A DNA stretch of 44,422 bases, from the NCBI GenBank assembly GCA_017645585.1, contig JAGCOF010000003.1, positions 1 through 44,422 of the forward strand, given 5' to 3'. A program made the translations under genes and the position numbers. The DNA comes from Bacteroidales bacterium (GTDB lineage Bacteria > Bacteroidota > Bacteroidia > Bacteroidales > P3). Each line of letters opens with the position of its first letter. Position 1 is the stretch's first letter. Shown one piece after another: positions 832-43,260 of the stretch. A model generated the notes under the pieces. The model searched no databases. It was not told the origin of the DNA and saw only the letters and a program-made list of their open reading frames with translations.

Positions 832-892
832 TCGTTAATCCGTAATCTGTAAACCGTAAACTGTTATCTGTAAACTACCAGCTACCTGCTAC
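832..892. repeat. 7-nt tandem repeat tract at a gene junction
   Basis: Degenerate heptamers (cgttaat, ccgtaat, ctgtaaa, ccgtaaa, ctgttat, ctgtaaa, ctaccag, ctacctg) run in phase through the whole gap between two minus-strand genes. On the coding strand the upstream gene's TAG stop lies in the first units and the downstream ATG follows directly after the last unit. It is one of several similar tracts in the window. Confidence 0.85.
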
Positions 893-3540: not shown

Positions 3541-3600
3541 CTCCGACTGTGGTCCGACTCAAGTCCGGGTCAACTCCGTGTCATCTCCGACTGCAGTCGG
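3541..3600. repeat. 11-nt-period tandem tract 3' of tatD
   Basis: TCCG recurs at 3542, 3553, 3564, 3575 and 3586, exactly every 11 nt, and the tract ends in the palindrome CCGACTGCAGTCGG. It lies just downstream of the last gene of the tatD transcription unit, as the other 11-nt tracts do for purF and the ZIP gene. Confidence 0.75.
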
Positions 3601-3676: not shown

Positions 3677-4474
3677 TCAGAGGCGGAAGAGTTCGTGGGC
3701 GGAGGCGGTGGTGACGTCGGCCACCTCGTCGAGGGTGATGCCGCGTAGGTCGGCGATGCGCTGGGCGATGAGGGGGATGTAGGAGGGCTCGTTGCGCTGG
3801 CCGCGATGGGGCACGGGGCTGAGGTAAGGGGTGTCGGTCTCGAGCAGCAGGCGCTCGAGGGGCACGGCACGGACGACATCGGCCAGGCCGGCATTTTTGA
3901 AAGTGACCACGCCGCCTACCCCGAGGTGGAAGCCCATCTCGACGGCGCGCTGGGCCTCCTGCACGCTGCCGCCGAAGCAGTGCATCACGCCGCGGTAGGT
4001 GCGCCGGTTGAGGTCGCGCAGCAGGCCGAAGACTTCGTTGTGGGCCTTGCGGATGTGCAGGCAAACGGGCAGGTCGAGTTCCTCGGCCCAGAGCATCTGG
4101 GTGCGAAGCACTTGGCGCTGCTCGGCCTCGAAGGTGCGGTCCCAATAGAGGTCCATGCCGATTTCGCCGACGGCAACGTATTTCAGTTTTGAGTTTTGAG
4201 TTTTGAGTTTTGAGTGGACGTGCTGGAGCTCCTGCTCGAAGTCCTCTTTGACCGAGGTGGGGTGGAGGCCCGCCATGGGGCGAAGCGTCAATGATGAGTG
4301 ATGAGTGATGAATGATGAATGGAGGAGGGCTTCGAGGCGCGGGGTGCTGGTGCTGTCGATGTCGGGCAGCAGCAGGGTGGTGACACCTGCGTCGAGGGCG
4401 CGCTGCAGGGCGTCGTCGCGGTCGGCGTCGAAGGCCTCGTCGTAGAGGTGGCAGTGAGTGTCGATGAAGGTCAT
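3677..4474 (-). CDS. tatD: TatD-family metal-dependent hydrolase
   Basis: This 265-residue protein starts FIDTHCHLYD, giving the HxH metal motif of the TatD/amidohydrolase barrel. It also carries VGEIGMDLYWD with the conserved Glu, CLHIRKAH, HCFGGS and ETDTPYLSP. Family members are Mg-dependent 3'-5' DNases or other phosphodiesterases active in the cytoplasm. The ATG at 4474 overlaps the stop of the upstream DUF2520 gene as ATGA, so translation is probably coupled. Two stretches look inserted, HSSFITHHSSLTL (near residue 55) and HSKLKTQNSKLK (near residue 90). Both are encoded by heptamer tandem tracts (4291-4325 and 4184-4215) and sit between conserved core segments, probably in loops. Confidence 0.95.
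   Translation of the reverse strand: MTFIDTHCHLYDEAFDADRDDALQRALDAGVTTLLLPDIDSTSTPRLEALLHSSFITHHSSLTLRPMAGLHPTSVKEDFEQELQHVHSKLKTQNSKLKYVAVGEIGMDLYWDRTFEAEQRQVLRTQMLWAEELDLPVCLHIRKAHNEVFGLLRDLNRRTYRGVMHCFGGSVQEAQRAVEMGFHLGVGGVVTFKNAGLADVVRAVPLERLLLETDTPYLSPVPHRGQRNEPSYIPLIAQRIADLRGITLDEVADVTTASAHELFRL
4184..4215. repeat. 7-nt tandem tract inside tatD
   Basis: cagtttt then gagtttt three times, then gagt, in exact 7-nt steps from 4184. Read on the coding strand it is free of stops and encodes SKLKTQNSKLK. It has the same unit type as intergenic tracts such as 6336-6366. Confidence 0.9.
4291..4325. repeat. Second 7-nt tandem tract inside tatD
   Basis: atgatga, gtgatga, gtgatga, atgatga and atgg follow in 7-nt steps. 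The coding strand reads through as SSFITHHSSL. It is independent of the tract at 4184-4215, with a different unit. Confidence 0.85.
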
Positions 4475-6081: not shown

Positions 6082-6327
6082 TTAGATTTTCTCTACCGAT
6101 TTCACTTCGGGGATGGCGCGCTTGAGGGCCTGTTCGATGCCCTGCTTGAGGGTCTGCATGGCGTGGGGGCAGCTGCCGCAGTGGCCTTTGAGGCGCACGA
6201 TGACGACACCCTCGGCGGTCATGTCCACATACTCCACGTCGCCGCCGTCCTGCTGCAGGTAGGGGCGTATCTGGGCAAGGGCGTTCTTTACTTTCTGCTC
6301 GATGACAGGTTTCTCTTGGTCGGTCAT
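6082..6327 (-). CDS. NifU C-terminal-like Fe-S scaffold protein
   Basis: This 81-residue protein has the NifU C-terminal fold alone: RPYLQQDGGDVEYVDM, then LKGHCGSCPHAMQTLKQGIEQ with the cluster-binding CxxC at residues 50 and 53. Such proteins carry and deliver a 4Fe-4S cluster between two subunits. It follows mrp, which encodes an Fe-S carrier ATPase, so the pair probably acts together. The start ATG directly follows a heptamer tract (6336-6366). Confidence 0.92.
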   Translation of the reverse strand: MTDQEKPVIEQKVKNALAQIRPYLQQDGGDVEYVDMTAEGVVIVRLKGHCGSCPHAMQTLKQGIEQALKRAIPEVKSVEKI

Positions 6328-6335
6328 AATCTTGG

Positions 6336-6366
6336 GTTTTAAGTTTTGAGTTATAAGTTTTAAGTG
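6336..6366. repeat. 7-nt tandem tract upstream of the NifU-like gene
   Basis: gttttaa, gttttga, gttataa and gttttaa follow in exact 7-nt steps, then gtggtgc. The tract lies 9 nt from the NifU-like ATG on the minus strand, within the 70-nt gap after mrp. Confidence 0.88.
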
Positions 6367-8542: not shown

Positions 8543-10138
8543 TTATTTTTCATTTTTCATTTTCTTCAAATCCTCGTCTTCCTGCATCACGATGCGATAG
8601 AAGAGCTCGTCGCCGTAGAGGCTCTGGCCGATATAGGCTTTCATGGTGTTGGCCATCAGGCGTCGCTGTGCCGTCAGGCTGCGGTTGTCGCGGGCTATGC
8701 CGGCCCTCTCGCCGCGACGCACCACCTCTTCAATCATCCTGTCGTCCACCTTGTATTGGCGGCGGAAAGCCTCGCCGTCGGCATAGCGCGCCAGCAGCGC
8801 GGCGGCGTTGCGCTTGACCTCGTCGAAGGCCACCCGGTTCAGCAGGCCCGCCGACGCCAGACGGTTGTAGTAGATGAAGGTGGTGTCCTTGCGGTAGGGC
8901 AGTATGACGTCGGGCGTGATGCCGCCACCGCCATAGACGGTGCGGCCGCCCACGGTGTAGTAGGGGGTGCTGTCGGTCACGCTGGCCACCGCCGTGTCGG
9001 CATAGGTCTCGTCGAGCAGTTGCTGCACATAATTGCGATAGTATTCATCGGTGCCGTCCGTGTAGGAACGTTGTATGCAGCGACCCGAGGGGGTGTAGTA
9101 GCGGGCTGTGGTGAGCAGCACCGCCGACCCGTCGCGCAGGTTGAACTCCGTCTGTACCAGCCCCTTGCCGAAGCTGCGACGTCCCACCACCTGGGCGCGG
9201 TCGTTGTCCTGCAGGGCGCCGCTGACCACCTCGCTGGCCGATGCCGACCCCTCGTCGATCATCACCGTCACACGGCCCGTGGTGAAGAGGCCGCCGCTGC
9301 GGGCCTTCACATCGTGGCGCCGCGAGTGGGCACCTTGGGTGTAGACAATCAGGCTGCCGGTCGGCAGCAGTTCGCCGGCCACGCCCACGGCGGCTTGCAG
9401 CGAGCCGCCCCCGTTGCCGCGCAAGTCGAGCACCAGGTGCTTCATGCCCTTGCTCTTCAACTGTCGCAGGGCAGTGCGAAACTCCTGGTGGGTGGTGCTG
9501 GCAAACGAGGTGAGGAGGATGTATCCTGTGGTGTCGTCGAGCATTGTGGCGCAGGGCATGGTGGCGCGGCTGACCACCCCGCGGCGTATGCTGTAGGTAT
9601 GCTTTGTGTTCTTCTCGTGCAGCACCTCCACCACCACCGTCGACCCGCGAGGCCCACGCAGGCGGGCCACCACGCTGTCGGCCGGCATGCCCACACCGCT
9701 CACCGTCTCACCGTCCACACTCACAATCATGTCGCCCGGCACAATGCCCACATTGGCCGATGGGCCGTCGGCCATCACCTGCCCCACGAAGGTCGTGTCG
9801 CCCTCGCGGTGCAGCACCAGGCCCACGCCCTCGAAGTTGCCGCGCATCATCTCGTCGGCATGTTCGGTCTCGCGGTAGGAGAGATAGGTGCTGTGGGGGT
9901 CCAACTCGCTGAGCAGCAGCGCTACAGCGCGTTCACTCACCGAGTCGATGTCCACCGTCTCTACATACTCCTTCTCCACCAGCTGCAGCACCTCGTCCAT
10001 CTTGCCCTGCAGGGCACCCGTGGTGGAGCGTGTGCGGCTGTTGGTGGCGAACATCAGGCCAATAAGCACCCCCATCACCATGGCTACAAGCACCAGGATG
10101 AAGTTGCCGGTTTGGGTGGATTTGTTTTCGCTGCTCAT
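8543..10138 (-). CDS. S41-family C-terminal processing protease
   Basis: This 531-residue protein has one N-terminal membrane anchor (about 13-33) and the helical lead ALLLSELDPHSTYLS. A PDZ domain follows (about 95-185, FEGVGLVL to GPRGSTVVVEV), then the S41 core with LDLRGNGGGSLQAAVGVAG. The catalytic serine lies in DEGSASASEVVSGALQD (about residue 300) and the lysine in RSFGKGLVQ (about 325). Such proteases act in the periplasm on C-termini of exported proteins; length is normal. It is first in a run of five tightly packed genes. The 223-nt gap upstream holds the purF terminator and an 11-nt repeat tract, so this gene should have its own promoter, though I do not find a convincing box. Confidence 0.95.
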   Translation of the reverse strand: MSSENKSTQTGNFILVLVAMVMGVLIGLMFATNSRTRSTTGALQGKMDEVLQLVEKEYVETVDIDSVSERAVALLLSELDPHSTYLSYRETEHADEMMRGNFEGVGLVLHREGDTTFVGQVMADGPSANVGIVPGDMIVSVDGETVSGVGMPADSVVARLRGPRGSTVVVEVLHEKNTKHTYSIRRGVVSRATMPCATMLDDTTGYILLTSFASTTHQEFRTALRQLKSKGMKHLVLDLRGNGGGSLQAAVGVAGELLPTGSLIVYTQGAHSRRHDVKARSGGLFTTGRVTVMIDEGSASASEVVSGALQDNDRAQVVGRRSFGKGLVQTEFNLRDGSAVLLTTARYYTPSGRCIQRSYTDGTDEYYRNYVQQLLDETYADTAVASVTDSTPYYTVGGRTVYGGGGITPDVILPYRKDTTFIYYNRLASAGLLNRVAFDEVKRNAAALLARYADGEAFRRQYKVDDRMIEEVVRRGERAGIARDNRSLTAQRRLMANTMKAYIGQSLYGDELFYRIVMQEDEDLKKMKNEK

Positions 10139-10238: not shown

Positions 10239-10241
10239 CGT

Positions 10242-10288
10242 ATTCTCTTGGTATACTCTTGGAAAACTCTTGGTATACTCTTGGGACA
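10242..10288. repeat. 11-nt tandem tract 3' of purF
   Basis: CTCTTGG recurs at 10245, 10256, 10267 and 10278, exactly every 11 nt (units ctcttggtata and ctcttggaaaa). Read on the minus strand the core is CCAAGAG, the same core as the tract 3' of the ZIP gene at 17015-17068. Confidence 0.9.
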
Positions 10289-17014: not shown

Positions 17015-17068
17015 CGACCAAGAGTCGACCAAGAGTTATCCAAGAGTTGCCCGAGAGCTGACCGGTAG
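17015..17068. repeat. 11-nt tandem tract 3' of the ZIP gene
   Basis: CCAAGAG or CCGAGAG recurs at 17018, 17029, 17040 and 17051, with a degenerate unit at 17062, exactly every 11 nt. It has the same core and the same orientation relative to the upstream gene as the tract 3' of purF. Both are preceded by tcgccccg. Confidence 0.9.
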
Positions 17069-17954: not shown

Positions 17955-18182
17955 TTACGGAGGCCCCAGCCAGTCGAAAATGGCCCTCACTTGGCGGGGG
18001 GTGAAGGTCTTGCAGGCGGTTTTGTAGCCCGCTGCCTGCAGCTCGTCCCACAGCATGTCGCAGCGCCGGATCATGGCCATCAGGTGGTTCACCGCCACGC
18101 GGGGCATGCTGTCCGGGAAGTAGAGCAGCGCCAGCTCTTTCTTGCTATAAGCGCGAATTGTGAAATCTTCTATGGTGTCCAT
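17955..18182 (-). CDS. DUF4248 family protein
   Basis: This 75-residue protein contains FTIRAYSKKELALLYFPDSMPRVAVNHLMAMIRRC and ends CKTFTPRQVRAIFDWLGPP. This matches the DUF4248 family, small HTH-like proteins that in Bacteroidetes often lie beside primase and VirE/DUF3987 genes of integrated elements. The SKKELALLY...FTPRQV layout suggests a DNA-binding helix-turn-helix, but no function is established. Its ATG directly follows a heptamer tract that also contains the stop of the upstream primase gene, so the two are co-transcribed. Confidence 0.85.
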   Translation of the reverse strand: MDTIEDFTIRAYSKKELALLYFPDSMPRVAVNHLMAMIRRCDMLWDELQAAGYKTACKTFTPRQVRAIFDWLGPP

Positions 18183-18218
18183 AAACTATAAACTTTAAAC
18201 TTTAAACCTTAAACTTTA
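18181..18218. repeat. 7-nt tandem tract at the primase/DUF4248 junction
   Basis: ataaact, ataaact, ttaaact, ttaaacc and ttaaact follow in exact 7-nt steps. On the minus strand the primase TAA stop (18204-18202) lies inside the tract, and the DUF4248 ATG at 18182 overlaps its end. Confidence 0.92.
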
Positions 18219-19092
18219 CATAGTATTCCGAGTAGTCCTTGCATCCCAGCGGCAGCTGGTGGTGCGTGAGGTTGGGCAGCAGGCGCTGCAGCTGGAGGAA
18301 AAGGCGCTCGCCGGGTTCGTCGCGGTCGGGGTACATGTGGAAGGGAGTTAAGAGTTGAGAGTTAAGCGTTAAGAGTTCGTCGAGGTCTTTCTTTTTCAGG
18401 AGGGTGGCCGAGGGGATGGCGATGGCCTTGTGGCCGGCCGAGAGCGCCGCCCAGCAGTCGGAGCAGCCCTCGGTGATGTAGAGCGGCTCGCCCTCGTGCA
18501 GGCGGCCGAGCACCGGCAGGTTGTAGATGCCGCATTCGGCCCCCTGCGGGAAGCGGAAGCGCGGCTGCGCGCCCTTCTGCAGGTTGCGGTTCTGGAGGCC
18601 CACGAGGCGCCCCTCGCGGTCGTAGTAGGGTATCTGCAGCCAATTCACGCCCTGCCGGTCGCGCCACGAGGTGAGGCGGCACCAGCGCACCACGCGCTCG
18701 TCGAGGCGCCGCTCGTCGAAGAGAAACCGCCGCGCTTCGGGCGAGAGCCAAGGCCGCTCAAAAAACTTCTCATACCTCTGTGCATCGAACGCCTTCGGCT
18801 CCGAAGGGGACGGTAAACGGTAAACCGTAAACTGTATACCATCGCCGCCGAGCCACTCGCACGCCTCCCGAAAGTCCTTATGCAAAAACCTCATCACCAA
18901 ATCAATCGTCCCCCCGTGCTCCCCGCACACAAAGCACCTATAGGTGTTCTTTCTTACGTTGAACGACAAACTTGCGTGGTGGTCGTCATGGAACGGACAC
19001 AGGCTCTTGTGTTGGCTCACCTTGAGCCCCAGCTTTTCCGCGACCCCCTCGATGGGGAGGTCGCGGAGCTGTTGAAGTTCTTGTCTATCCAT
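18202..19092 (-). CDS. CHC2 zinc-finger/Toprim primase of an accessory element
   Basis: The 296-residue protein has a DnaG-type zinc ribbon with Cys32, His35, Cys53 and Cys56 (CPFHDD...YRCFVCGEHGG). A helical segment ends at ACEWLGG, and a Toprim-like domain follows with PLYITEGCSDCWAALSAGHKAIAIPSA and HMYPDRDEPGERL (DxD). It is about half the length of chromosomal DnaG and lacks the helicase-binding end, as in plasmid, phage and conjugative-element primases. Two heptamer tracts are translated within it: FTVYRLP after the zinc domain (18809-18840) and TLNSQLLTPF just before the DxD motif (18345-18379). It lies 5 nt after the DUF3987 gene and ends inside a third tract. Confidence 0.92.
   Translation of the reverse strand: MDRQELQQLRDLPIEGVAEKLGLKVSQHKSLCPFHDDHHASLSFNVRKNTYRCFVCGEHGGTIDLVMRFLHKDFREACEWLGGDGIQFTVYRLPSPSEPKAFDAQRYEKFFERPWLSPEARRFLFDERRLDERVVRWCRLTSWRDRQGVNWLQIPYYDREGRLVGLQNRNLQKGAQPRFRFPQGAECGIYNLPVLGRLHEGEPLYITEGCSDCWAALSAGHKAIAIPSATLLKKKDLDELLTLNSQLLTPFHMYPDRDEPGERLFLQLQRLLPNLTHHQLPLGCKDYSEYYVKFKV
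18345..18379. repeat. 7-nt tandem tract inside the primase gene
   Basis: gagttaa, gagttga, gagttaa, gcgttaa and gagttcg follow in exact 7-nt steps. It is translated without stop as LLTLNSQLLTP, immediately before the catalytic DxD region. Confidence 0.9.
18809..18840. repeat. Second 7-nt tandem tract inside the primase gene
   Basis: gacggta, aacggta, aaccgta and aactgta follow in 7-nt steps. On the coding strand it reads QFTVYRLPS, between the zinc ribbon and the core domain. Confidence 0.85.
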
Positions 19093-30725: not shown

Positions 30726-30794
30726 CAGCTGCAATGCTGCGGTTGTCTATTTCAGCAACGAGCAATGCAACAGTCCTTTGAATAAAATATTTCA

Positions 30795-30975
30795 TCGAGG
30801 TTCTCCCCTGAAAAGGGGGGACGAAGAGGGAATCACGTGCAAATCGTGAGCTGTCGCGCAACTGTAAATCACCGTTACATTCTTCGGCGGGCAAACATAG
30901 CCATTGGGTCGGCAACGACCTGAGAAGGCGCCGCGCTGAAGGGTGAAAGCCAGGAGACCTGCCCCGTTGAGTTTT
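30795..30975 (+). promoter_or_regulatory. Cobalamin (B12) riboswitch
   Basis: The aptamer hallmarks appear in order. cgaggttc opens the element; agggaatcacgtgcaaatc and gagctgtcgcgcaactgtaa form the core; ccattggg and gagaaggcg follow; the B12 box AGCCAGGAGACCTGCC lies at 30948-30963. Such elements bind adenosylcobalamin or relatives and usually lower expression of the downstream gene. It points at the CoA-transferase gene at 31124, with about 150 nt between, including an octamer tract. No clear intrinsic terminator is seen, so control may act on translation start. Boundaries are approximate. Confidence 0.92.
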
Positions 30976-31007
30976 TGGCAATGCTTTCGCGTCAAAGGCG
31001 GTTGTCT

Positions 31008-39510: not shown

Positions 39511-39540
39511 TTAGTTGTCAGTTATCAGTTGTCAGTTGGG
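39511..39540. repeat. 7-nt tandem tract at the EamA/NUDIX junction
   Basis: agttgtc, agttatc, agttgtc and agttggg follow in exact 7-nt steps. On the minus strand the EamA TGA (39527-39525) lies inside and the NUDIX ATG is reached 2 nt after the last unit. Confidence 0.92.
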
Positions 39541-41837: not shown

Positions 41838-43235
41838 ATGAGTAAAATTAAACATTTGCTTCTTGCCCTGCTGGCAGTGATGTGCTTTTCCACAGCCGCA
41901 CGGGCTTTCACTGTGCAGTGGACGGGTGAGACCAACGTGGTCTACAACGCCCAGCCACAGAACGTCTTGAGCGCGTCGTATGTCGACGCCAACAATGTGA
42001 CGCACGCTTTGGCGCTCACCTTCACCAACGGCACCGAGGTCATCAATGCACCCAACTATCCGGTCAATGCCGGTGCATGGGTGGTGACGGCCTATTCGCC
42101 TTCGACCAGCGACCCGCTGGAAGGCGCCACCGCCATGCTTAACATCCAGCCCGCCACAGTGTTTGTGACCGGCGCCGCTGCCGAGTTTGCCAAGTTTGCC
42201 GACGGCACCTTGGCCGGTGTGGTCACCAATCAGGGTACCCTCAACGGCGTGCTGGGCAACGACGCGGTGAGCCACATCACCACCGCCATCTTCAGCGACG
42301 CCATTGTGGGCACAGGCAAGACCATCACGCTGTACTATGCCCTCGTGAGCGATGATGCCGAAGTGCTGAACAACTACATCCTCACCCCCTCCTCGCAGTT
42401 CTACACCAACTCTGGCGTGGTCATCCCCGACATGCAGCCCAATGAAAGTATCGGCCAACATGGCATCGACCTCTATGCCTATGGCTACTGCACAGGCACC
42501 GGCTACAGCATCAACTACCACCTCATCAGCGGCACCCCTGACCAATACCGTATCGACTTCGCCGACAGCCGCTTCACTGATGTGAATTGGACCAACCTGG
42601 CCACCGCCGGCGCCAACGGCACAATCGATGTCACCATCCCCGCCGCCGATATTCCCACGGGCGACTATGCGATGGACATCATCTTCCGCGACAGCCGCTT
42701 CCCGGGTCTTGAGAGCACCCCCATCACCGTGAACATCCACGTGAACCTGCCCCAGACCTACACCATGCCGCTGTTCGACAATGTCATTGCGCTGGTTGAC
42801 ACCTGCAACTGCTTCACCGACATACAGTGGTACCACCGTGCCGACGCCAACGCCGAGTGGCAGGCCATCCCGGGTGCCAACGACTACTACTACCGCGAAG
42901 AAGGCGGCTTGACGGGCGAGTACTTCGTGCGCGCCAAGATGAACGGCGTGGAGACCTACACCTGCCCGCAGAGCGATGTGACCACCCTCATCAGCGAGGA
43001 GCAGCAGGCCGTCAAGGTGTCGGCCTACCCCAACCCCACCGCCGAGAGTGTCAACGTGGTGGTCAGTGGTTCCAACACCACCACCCACCTGCTGCGTGTC
43101 ATCAGCACCGTGGGTGTCGAGATGGAGAGCCGCACCTTCGAAGGTCCGAGCACCACGATAGACATGCAGAGCTACCAGCGTGGCAACTATGTGGTGAGCG
43201 TGGACGGCGTGGTTGTGCGTGTAATTAGAAATTAA
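41838..43235 (+). CDS. Secreted beta-domain protein with a probable type IX sorting domain
   Basis: A signal peptide (IKHLLLALLAVMCFSTAARA) leads the 465-residue protein. The next part resembles MBG/YDG-like repeats: FTVQWTGETNVVYNAQPQNVLSASYVD and LNIQPATVFVTGAAAEFAKFADGTLAGVV. An Ig-like region follows (TVNIHVNLPQTY to FVRAKMNGVETYTCPQSD). The C-terminus begins VKVSAYPNPTAESVNVVV, the 'YPNPT' opening typical of type A sorting domains, and ends GNYVVSVDGVVVRVIRN. It is probably an adhesin or structural surface protein. It lies 15 nt after purD and ends in a heptamer tract that leads directly into the next gene. Confidence 0.85.
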   Translation: MSKIKHLLLALLAVMCFSTAARAFTVQWTGETNVVYNAQPQNVLSASYVDANNVTHALALTFTNGTEVINAPNYPVNAGAWVVTAYSPSTSDPLEGATAMLNIQPATVFVTGAAAEFAKFADGTLAGVVTNQGTLNGVLGNDAVSHITTAIFSDAIVGTGKTITLYYALVSDDAEVLNNYILTPSSQFYTNSGVVIPDMQPNESIGQHGIDLYAYGYCTGTGYSINYHLISGTPDQYRIDFADSRFTDVNWTNLATAGANGTIDVTIPAADIPTGDYAMDIIFRDSRFPGLESTPITVNIHVNLPQTYTMPLFDNVIALVDTCNCFTDIQWYHRADANAEWQAIPGANDYYYREEGGLTGEYFVRAKMNGVETYTCPQSDVTTLISEEQQAVKVSAYPNPTAESVNVVVSGSNTTTHLLRVISTVGVEMESRTFEGPSTTIDMQSYQRGNYVVSVDGVVVRVIRN

Positions 43236-43260
43236 GAATTAACCATTAAGAATTAAGAGA
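43224..43260. repeat. 7-nt tandem tract between the two surface-protein genes
   Basis: attagaa, attaaga, attaacc, attaaga and attaaga follow in exact 7-nt steps. The upstream TAA stop (43233-43235) lies in the second unit, and the downstream ATG (43262) begins 3 nt after the last unit. Confidence 0.92.

Follow-up and report, generated by a model that had tools for sequence, protein, structure and literature searches.

Heptamer repeats of the STRR type lie in the gaps between genes of cyanobacteria and vary between relatives. TAACTGA direct repeats have been described in Beggiatoaceae, Cyanobacteria and five Bacteroidetes (MacGregor 2015, PMC4679880). There they lie before start codons and over upstream stops, supply stops in all three forward frames, fall within ORFs in some cases and, in some genomes, are mixed with other heptamers. 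In Xanthomonas and Nostoc, the heptamers are GGGAATC and GGGGA(C/T)T, with slippage cited (PLoS One 2015, PMC4692102). In Xanthomonas, arrays most often comprise four units, are 89-93% intergenic and, where two related species are compared, sit for the most part between shared genes while varying in sequence and length. Both papers cite Mrazek 2007, and in the citing passages heptanucleotides are the most abundant class in most of the surveyed genomes and polymerase slippage is the idea put forward.

Here, we describe runs of 7-nt repeats in a gut bacterium of the order Bacteroidales, in and beyond a window of 44,422 nt (GCA_017645585.1, contig JAGCOF010000003.1, positions 1 to 44,422). They occur in gaps and in genes, and they suggest a genome-wide copying process that is tolerated where the damage is small, rather than a dedicated joint. 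Like the TAACTGA repeats, they have a period of 7 and form gap tracts before starts and over stops; the tract at 39513-39538 is of that unit type. The earlier study follows a single unit, and similar heptamers seldom form repeats in its main genome, whereas many units occur here. The TAACTGA sets are mostly intergenic and forward, whereas 60% of our tracts are genic, conserved enzymes included, and those at junctions divide into 16 sense and 17 antisense. Also unlike that system, two species here carry different units at one site. The Xanthomonas and Nostoc units are of the G-quadruplex type, whereas ours are A+T- or pyrimidine-rich with a heavy genic load; no GGGANTN or GGGGAYT unit was seen by eye among the 79 aligned tracts of the window's genome, and mean tract G+C is 0.28-0.48 by class. 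Our tracts can be classed with the heptanucleotide long simple sequence repeats of Mrazek 2007, as cited, in that they are tandem arrays of period 7 above chance. The citing passages mention neither species-specific unit families nor in-frame tracts in housekeeping genes, whereas both are present here. A literature search, with most subscription papers outside its coverage, returned no report of in-frame heptamers in housekeeping genes or of species-specific units at orthologous sites. Intergenic heptamers are already published; the genic load and the exchange of units at a kept period may be new.

In the window, 10 period-7 tracts reach a score of at least 10 (Table 1), whereas 20 block shuffles yield none; of the other periods between 4 and 15, each gives 0 to 3 tracts, apart from the harmonic period 14 (8). 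Five lie at or in same-strand gaps and had been listed in the initial annotation; all five are present in the sequence with a TRF period of 7. Five more had been missed: 4181-4215 and 4292-4321 in TatD, 18345-18377 and 18810-18836 in the primase-like gene, and 8545-8563 in the S41 peptidase gene. The gene names given earlier agree with Pfam for CNNM, carboxyltransferase, CHC2 zinc finger (primase-like), DUF4248, NUDIX, EamA, Mrp/NUBPL and one surface protein. The 57-nt gap (832-888) between the carboxyltransferase stop (889-891) and the CNNM ATG (831) is indeed made of in-phase 7-nt units, on TRF evidence for 836-873; its core is 836-871, and 871-891 holds weaker in-phase units, including the upstream stop (by eye). 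It had also been proposed that the upstream stop always lies in the tract and that the next start follows within a few nt. The stop is inside the tract at 18181-18218, 39513-39538, 43223-43258 and, on visual reading, among the weak last units of the first tract, but not at 6336-6365. At four of the sites, the next start is no more than 4 nt from the tract or overlaps it; at 6336-6365 the distance is 8 nt. The tract at 18181-18218 contains the preceding stop and also overlaps the start codon that follows. A known RNA element was considered and rejected: at the Rfam gathering score, the window has no match other than a cobalamin riboswitch. The riboswitch itself lies at 30781-30980 on the + strand (99 bits).

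Table 1. Period-7 tracts of the window, with positions counted from its first letter.
Feature	Position	Strand	Evidence
Heptamer tract filling the carboxyltransferase/CNNM gap	832..891	.	TRF 836-873; own scan 836-871, score 11
In-frame AACTCAA units in TatD DNase, aa 87-98	4181..4215	-	score 25; translation
In-frame CACTCAT/CATTCAT units in TatD DNase, aa 52-61	4292..4321	-	score 20
AACTTAA-type tract upstream of gene 6082-6327, in the gap after Mrp/NUBPL	6336..6365	-	TRF; score 11
Short tract forming the last codons of the S41 peptidase gene, same-strand junction	8545..8563	-	score 12; translation, Pfam
AACTTTA / TTTAAAG tract, primase-like/DUF4248 junction	18181..18218	.	score 22; TRF 18182-18218
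In-frame AACTCTT tract in primase-like gene, aa 239-250	18345..18377	-	score 14
In-frame GTTTACC tract in primase-like gene, aa 86-95	18810..18836	-	score 14
AACTGAC/AACTGAT tract (TAACTGA-type), EamA/NUDIX junction	39513..39538	-	score 13; TRF
AATTAAG tract between two surface-protein genes	43223..43258	+	TRF 43230-43258; score 11

The tracts are dispersed well beyond the window. Its own genome (G000; assembly of 1.93 Mb in 62 contigs, 83% complete) has as its nearest named relatives, by AlaRS, the Bacteroidales MAGs RUG279 (86%) and RGIG4993 from roe-deer rumen (82%). In 714 kb of it (the window and 40 further stretches), period 7 gives 79 tracts, period 11 gives 87 and period 22, the double of 11, gives 24; each remaining period from 2 to 24 gives at most 10. 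In these scans, as in those of the seven-species sample, arrays explained by a shorter period were dropped; the score thresholds of 10 and 12 are our own choice, and genes come from our own gene caller, with Pfam checks for the named proteins only. The congener G012 has 108 period-7 tracts in 879 kb, at densities inside and outside genes (0.079 and 0.483 per kb) about equal to those of G000 (0.077 and 0.446), which corresponds to some 110-120 tracts per Mb in these two species. Across congeners the load is strongly unequal: 11.1 tracts per 100 kb in G000, 4.5 in G022, 10.0 in G001, 11.2 in G012 (first 80 kb) and 13.8 in G050. G016 and G029 had no tract in 80 kb apiece, an outcome with a probability of 0.00014 at the G000 density. 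In G092, a 60.8-kb sample holds 5 period-7 and 2 period-8 tracts; period 8 is a family there and was rejected as the rule of that genome.

The tracts had been described as standard joints between genes. They are enriched at same-strand junctions: for G000 and G012 together, without 10 tracts at contig edges (2 in G000, 8 in G012), there are 57 in 92.0 kb of same-strand gaps (0.62 per kb), 8 in 40.5 kb of divergent gaps (0.20), none in 13.2 kb of convergent gaps and 112 in 1,435 kb of CDS (0.078). Same-strand gaps exceed CDS with p=1.7e-27 and divergent gaps with p=0.001, and the enrichment repeats in the second species (36 tracts in 56.4 kb, against 21 in 35.6 kb in G000). The word "standard" does not survive the counts: only 30 of 441 same-strand junctions of G000 carry a tract with a score of at least 10 (for gaps of 20-60 nt, 13 of 73), and 112 of the 187 tracts in the two species lie inside genes. 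Nor are tracts tolerated in gaps only, as had been suggested, since conserved proteins also carry them in frame. Mean tract G+C is 0.43 and 0.48 in CDS versus 0.33 and 0.28 outside. It is thus location that sorts the units, and not the units that determine location.

In-frame tracts were found in the genes of TatD, RsmE, AlaRS, TruB, shikimate dehydrogenase, PrmC, a SpoU methylase, adenylosuccinate lyase, RNase H1, QueA and a TruA-type pseudouridine synthase. Three have positions essentially between Pfam domains: the first RsmE tract (aa 66-75, domains at aa 17-62 and 74-233), the SpoU methylase tract (aa 92-103, domains at aa 5-85 and 104-242) and that of RNase H1 (aa 58-70, domains at aa 6-49 and 99-173). 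In the primase-like gene, the tract at 18810-18836 lies directly past the CHC2 zinc finger (aa 21-81). Others are within Pfam domain spans and not in linkers: those of PrmC, QueA, TruB, adenylosuccinate lyase and the second RsmE site. The TatD tract at 4181-4215 is covered by the TatD Pfam match. The term loop, as used here, is deduced from alignments. Both TatD tracts coincide with gaps in the alignment to the solved YcfH, and at TatD loop 1 (4292-4321) G000 has 6 aa more than 29 congeners, in an alignment of the best 30 of 57. The AlaRS tracts are inserts of 2 and 6 aa; they did not turn up in the 22 further Bacteroidota sequences of the alignment, though two other AlaRS loci (L105, L142) bear tracts of their own in the gene.

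The initial annotation had held that the period is kept while unit sequences differ between tracts, and this proves true even at orthologous sites. At the place of the TatD tract at 4181-4215, congeners carry other repeats; the TatD linker is occupied by an AATTCAA array in G001 and an AATTCTC array in G006. For RsmE, the best 30 of 105 matching genomes were surveyed, and each of two loops bears a period-7 tract in 13 of these 30 species. By eye, loop 2 shows such units as AACTCTC, AATTGTC, ACCTTTC, AATTCTC, CACTCTC, CACTTTC, CACTACC, AACTTTC and AATTCAA. Loop 1 often keeps its length, measuring 18 residues in 10 of the 13 tract-bearing rows and in 8 of the 17 others (9 if G046 is counted from the aligned cysteine); rows with palindrome-like inserts have 21 to 25. 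Tract presence at loop 2 is scattered on the tree, with 10 changes and no clustering beyond shuffles (298/500), which fits independent birth too. In eight genomes, units labelled by eye could be compared between the two RsmE sites, near relatives G036 and G056 included; four of the eight have one unit at both, a result reached in 144 of 40,320 permutations.

Similar exchanges separate G000 from G012. At one position in QueA, G000 has AATTCTC and G012 has ACGATAC, unrelated units with zero net length difference, and common tract positions with different units are also seen in RsmE (two), the shikimate dehydrogenase gene (two) and TatD loop 1; the listed pairs of one pair comparison are those of at least 50% identity only. 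Of 43 windows, 33 differ in net length from the ortholog by an amount other than zero or a multiple of 7 aa, by a rough measure over +-12 residues in which compensating indels are possible, and which takes in four pairs at no more than 57% identity and rows at contig ends. Many G012 tracts accompany inserts of at least 10 aa. The EamA/NUDIX adjacency is found in 10 species, with clear tracts only in G000 (AACTGAC) and G113 (AAACCTT) and a weak one in G084 (AACTGnn). The period scan gave no tract at this junction in G012, G115, G083, G010, G118, G007 or G101, and in G115 a degenerate pattern is visible by eye only; G057 has a GTAAACA tract before NUDIX with no EamA match there, and in G096 an EamA gene match was not found at the NUDIX site. 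That so few species have a tract at this junction counts against the copying account favoured below, for which the RsmE and QueA comparisons carry the argument. All comparisons are interspecies, and among the congener matches listed for a 5-kb query none exceeds about 85% DNA identity to G000; at this distance, copying, overwriting and independent birth at permissive sites are not directly separable.

The many units have a degenerate consensus in common. When the 79 units of G000 are aligned by rotation and strand, they reach 5.75 bits, versus 4.37 +- 0.08 for letter-shuffled units; the distinct units of all samples reach 4.76 bits, versus 4.03 +- 0.09. The consensus is approximately [AC][AC][CT]T plus three letters. 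A single common unit is rejected by the 58 distinct units among 120 tracts, which were found in 5 of the 7 species sampled. A strict core-plus-spacer binding motif is weakened as well: the reversed consensus motif at spacing 7 is as common in G000 as the forward one (66 vs 65), and mismatches within tracts depend only mildly on phase (p=0.03 in G000, 0.0009 outside CDS, 0.10 in CDS and 0.41 in the other species). Units are specific to genomes, two tracts having the same unit with probability 0.056 within a genome versus 0.015 between G000 and G012 (0/500 permutations), whose overall G+C is 0.559 and 0.549. Of 119 congeners, 44 have CACTYTC triples, the number of matches per genome ranging from 0 to 75; the reversed control, ACCTYTC, turned out to be a real family itself, with 58 matches in G000 and none in G007, G019, G025 and G098. 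AACTGAC is the consensus of 8 of the 79 G000 tracts, the EamA/NUDIX tract also holding an AACTGAT unit, and AACTGAY triples are present in 13 of 198 Bacteroidota genomes. A period-8 family, CAATCARN, was noted in 39 of 119 congeners, with 131-176 matches in G052, G037 and G105 and none in the other 80; its control gave none.

How, then, do the tracts arise? They belong to a dispersed, fast-changing population of heptamer arrays of some 30 nt, and it is about an even call, in our judgement, whether this population is generated by template misalignment and inter-locus copying and filtered by tolerance. During DNA synthesis, the nascent strand would misalign by one 7-nt register or switch to a similar tract elsewhere, copy one or more units and then realign. 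Misalignment without realignment could give birth to a tract or lengthen it; with realignment, units would be overwritten at constant length, keeping the frame and homogenising the units. Selection would purge tracts that break frame, put stops in genes or damage promoters or terminators, and tracts would survive in short spacers within operons and in protein segments that tolerate indels. The patterns above show that the tracts are dispersed, that units are specific to genomes at a kept period, that one protein loop frequently holds its length, and that tracts are sorted by reading frame; from them we infer synthesis that misaligns in steps of 7 nt and sometimes switches between tracts. Plain insertion also occurs, as the net inserts at TatD loop 1, in AlaRS and at many G012 tracts attest. 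A more specific version, concerted evolution, we put forward only tentatively and consider somewhat doubtful: unlinked tracts would be rewritten to the current units of the species by short template switches that keep register and often length. It assumes 200-280 arrays per genome, as extrapolated from the sampled densities. On this reading, the copying machinery would set the period and the unit would be a species "dialect", with protein segments passively rewritten, frame intact, and no recognisable reverse transcriptase needed.

Local slipped-strand growth only, in which a chance 7-nt-spaced microhomology grows and then decays by point mutation while selection leaves gaps and tolerant segments, would be in keeping with the dominance of period 7, as in the published surveys that suggest polymerase slippage (PMC4679880 and PMC4692102, in their passages citing Mrazek 2007). 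It would also give tracts that tend to end at one consensus position, as growth from a seed would, and ends fall on the consensus T in 28 of 79 tracts, with about 11 expected. But local slippage alone does not account for units that are common to loci of one genome and different in two congeners of similar G+C; moreover, the RsmE loop length is often unchanged, and the 33 of 43 windows with net changes off the 7-aa step, rough as that measure is, do not sit well with it. We consider it unlikely as the whole account, and slippage growth possible as a contributor. Insertion of the arrays by a mobile or selfish element, either MITE-like or reverse-transcribed, could explain the species-specific amplification, the net inserts at some sites, and the palindromic and period-8 dispersed repeats seen by eye in the same TatD and RsmE loops. 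It is rather improbable, given that RsmE loops often keep their length and that no terminal inverted repeats were noticed by eye in the tracts read. Dispersal by a reverse transcriptase is specifically disfavoured: RVT_1 was not found in five tract-bearing genomes (G000, 83% complete, G001, G002, G007 and G022), while G029 has one but shows no tract in 80 kb. It seems, then, that no RVT_1 reverse transcriptase encoded in the genome is required.

We rate function-based accounts lower still. Binding sites for an RNA- or DNA-binding regulator upstream of starts, as proposed for the Beggiatoaceae TAACTGA repeats, would agree with a unit consensus well above shuffled units and with the 14 of 33 junction tracts whose end lies -3 to 15 nt from the start codon that follows. 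We nevertheless find this very improbable, in view of the absence of orientation bias at junctions, the majority of tracts inside genes, the different units of G000 and G113 at the same EamA/NUDIX junction, and the tractless 80-kb samples of congeners G016 and G029. The initial annotation had offered, as one of two possibilities, a universal translation stop and spacer, the heptamer rhythm being selected at operon joints where three stop-bearing units close all frames. Tract density is indeed highest in same-strand gaps, junction tracts lie at or over the upstream stop in 13 of 33 cases (G000) and 27 of 57 (G000 and G012), and 42 of these 57 have stops in all sense frames. But 35 of the 57 have them in all antisense frames too (Fisher p=0.23; 20/33 vs 16/33 for G000 alone at the lower threshold), the consensus points either way at junctions, most tracts are in genes, 411 of 441 same-strand junctions do without one, and so, in the scan, do 7 of 10 species at the EamA/NUDIX junction. 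Strand symmetry disfavours the universal stop, to which we give almost no credence, and the tempting inference of operon "joints" or designed stop codons was removed as unsupported. The junction stop codons are better seen as a by-product, because stop-rich, A+T-rich units persist only outside genes: 26 of the 75 tracts outside CDS are closed in all six frames, versus none, necessarily, of the 112 in CDS.

If template misalignment with inter-locus copying is indeed the source, a non-random replication process writes short peptides into conserved enzymes of a species-rich genus, and some loop sequences in these proteins may hold little functional information. The tracts would also preserve a natural trace of templates misaligning by a fixed step of 7 nt, and the dominance of heptamers among longer bacterial repeats would become testable through strain comparison.

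Finally, we note other repeats in these genomes. The loops that host heptamers also hold, by eye, in-frame palindromic or REP-like repeats (L048 and L197 in the TatD linker; L272, L287, L288 and L291 in RsmE loop 1). In the TatD linker, G037 has a period-8 array and G046 and G062 have a palindromic repeat (by eye), while G012 and G002 (L203, L207; by eye) have an AATTCGnnT repeat family and longer duplicated stretches. Several contigs (L006, L010, L012, L014, L030) start or finish in a heptamer tract or within 10 nt of one, so tracts probably break assemblies. A second dispersed class, of period 11, is represented in the window at 3542-3589, 10240-10284 and 17015-17064. The 87 arrays in the 714 kb of G000 comprise 39 in divergent gaps, 37 in same-strand gaps and only 3 in CDS, and such arrays are present in the seven species sampled. 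Several are inverted pairs, for example TTCTTCAACAG facing CTGTTGAAGAA, which suggests promoter or leader elements, or RNA hairpins. In two upstream regions (L025 16895-17258 and L037 114-477), two period-11 arrays are followed in common order by an AACTGAC tract (by eye), apparently a duplicated regulatory module.
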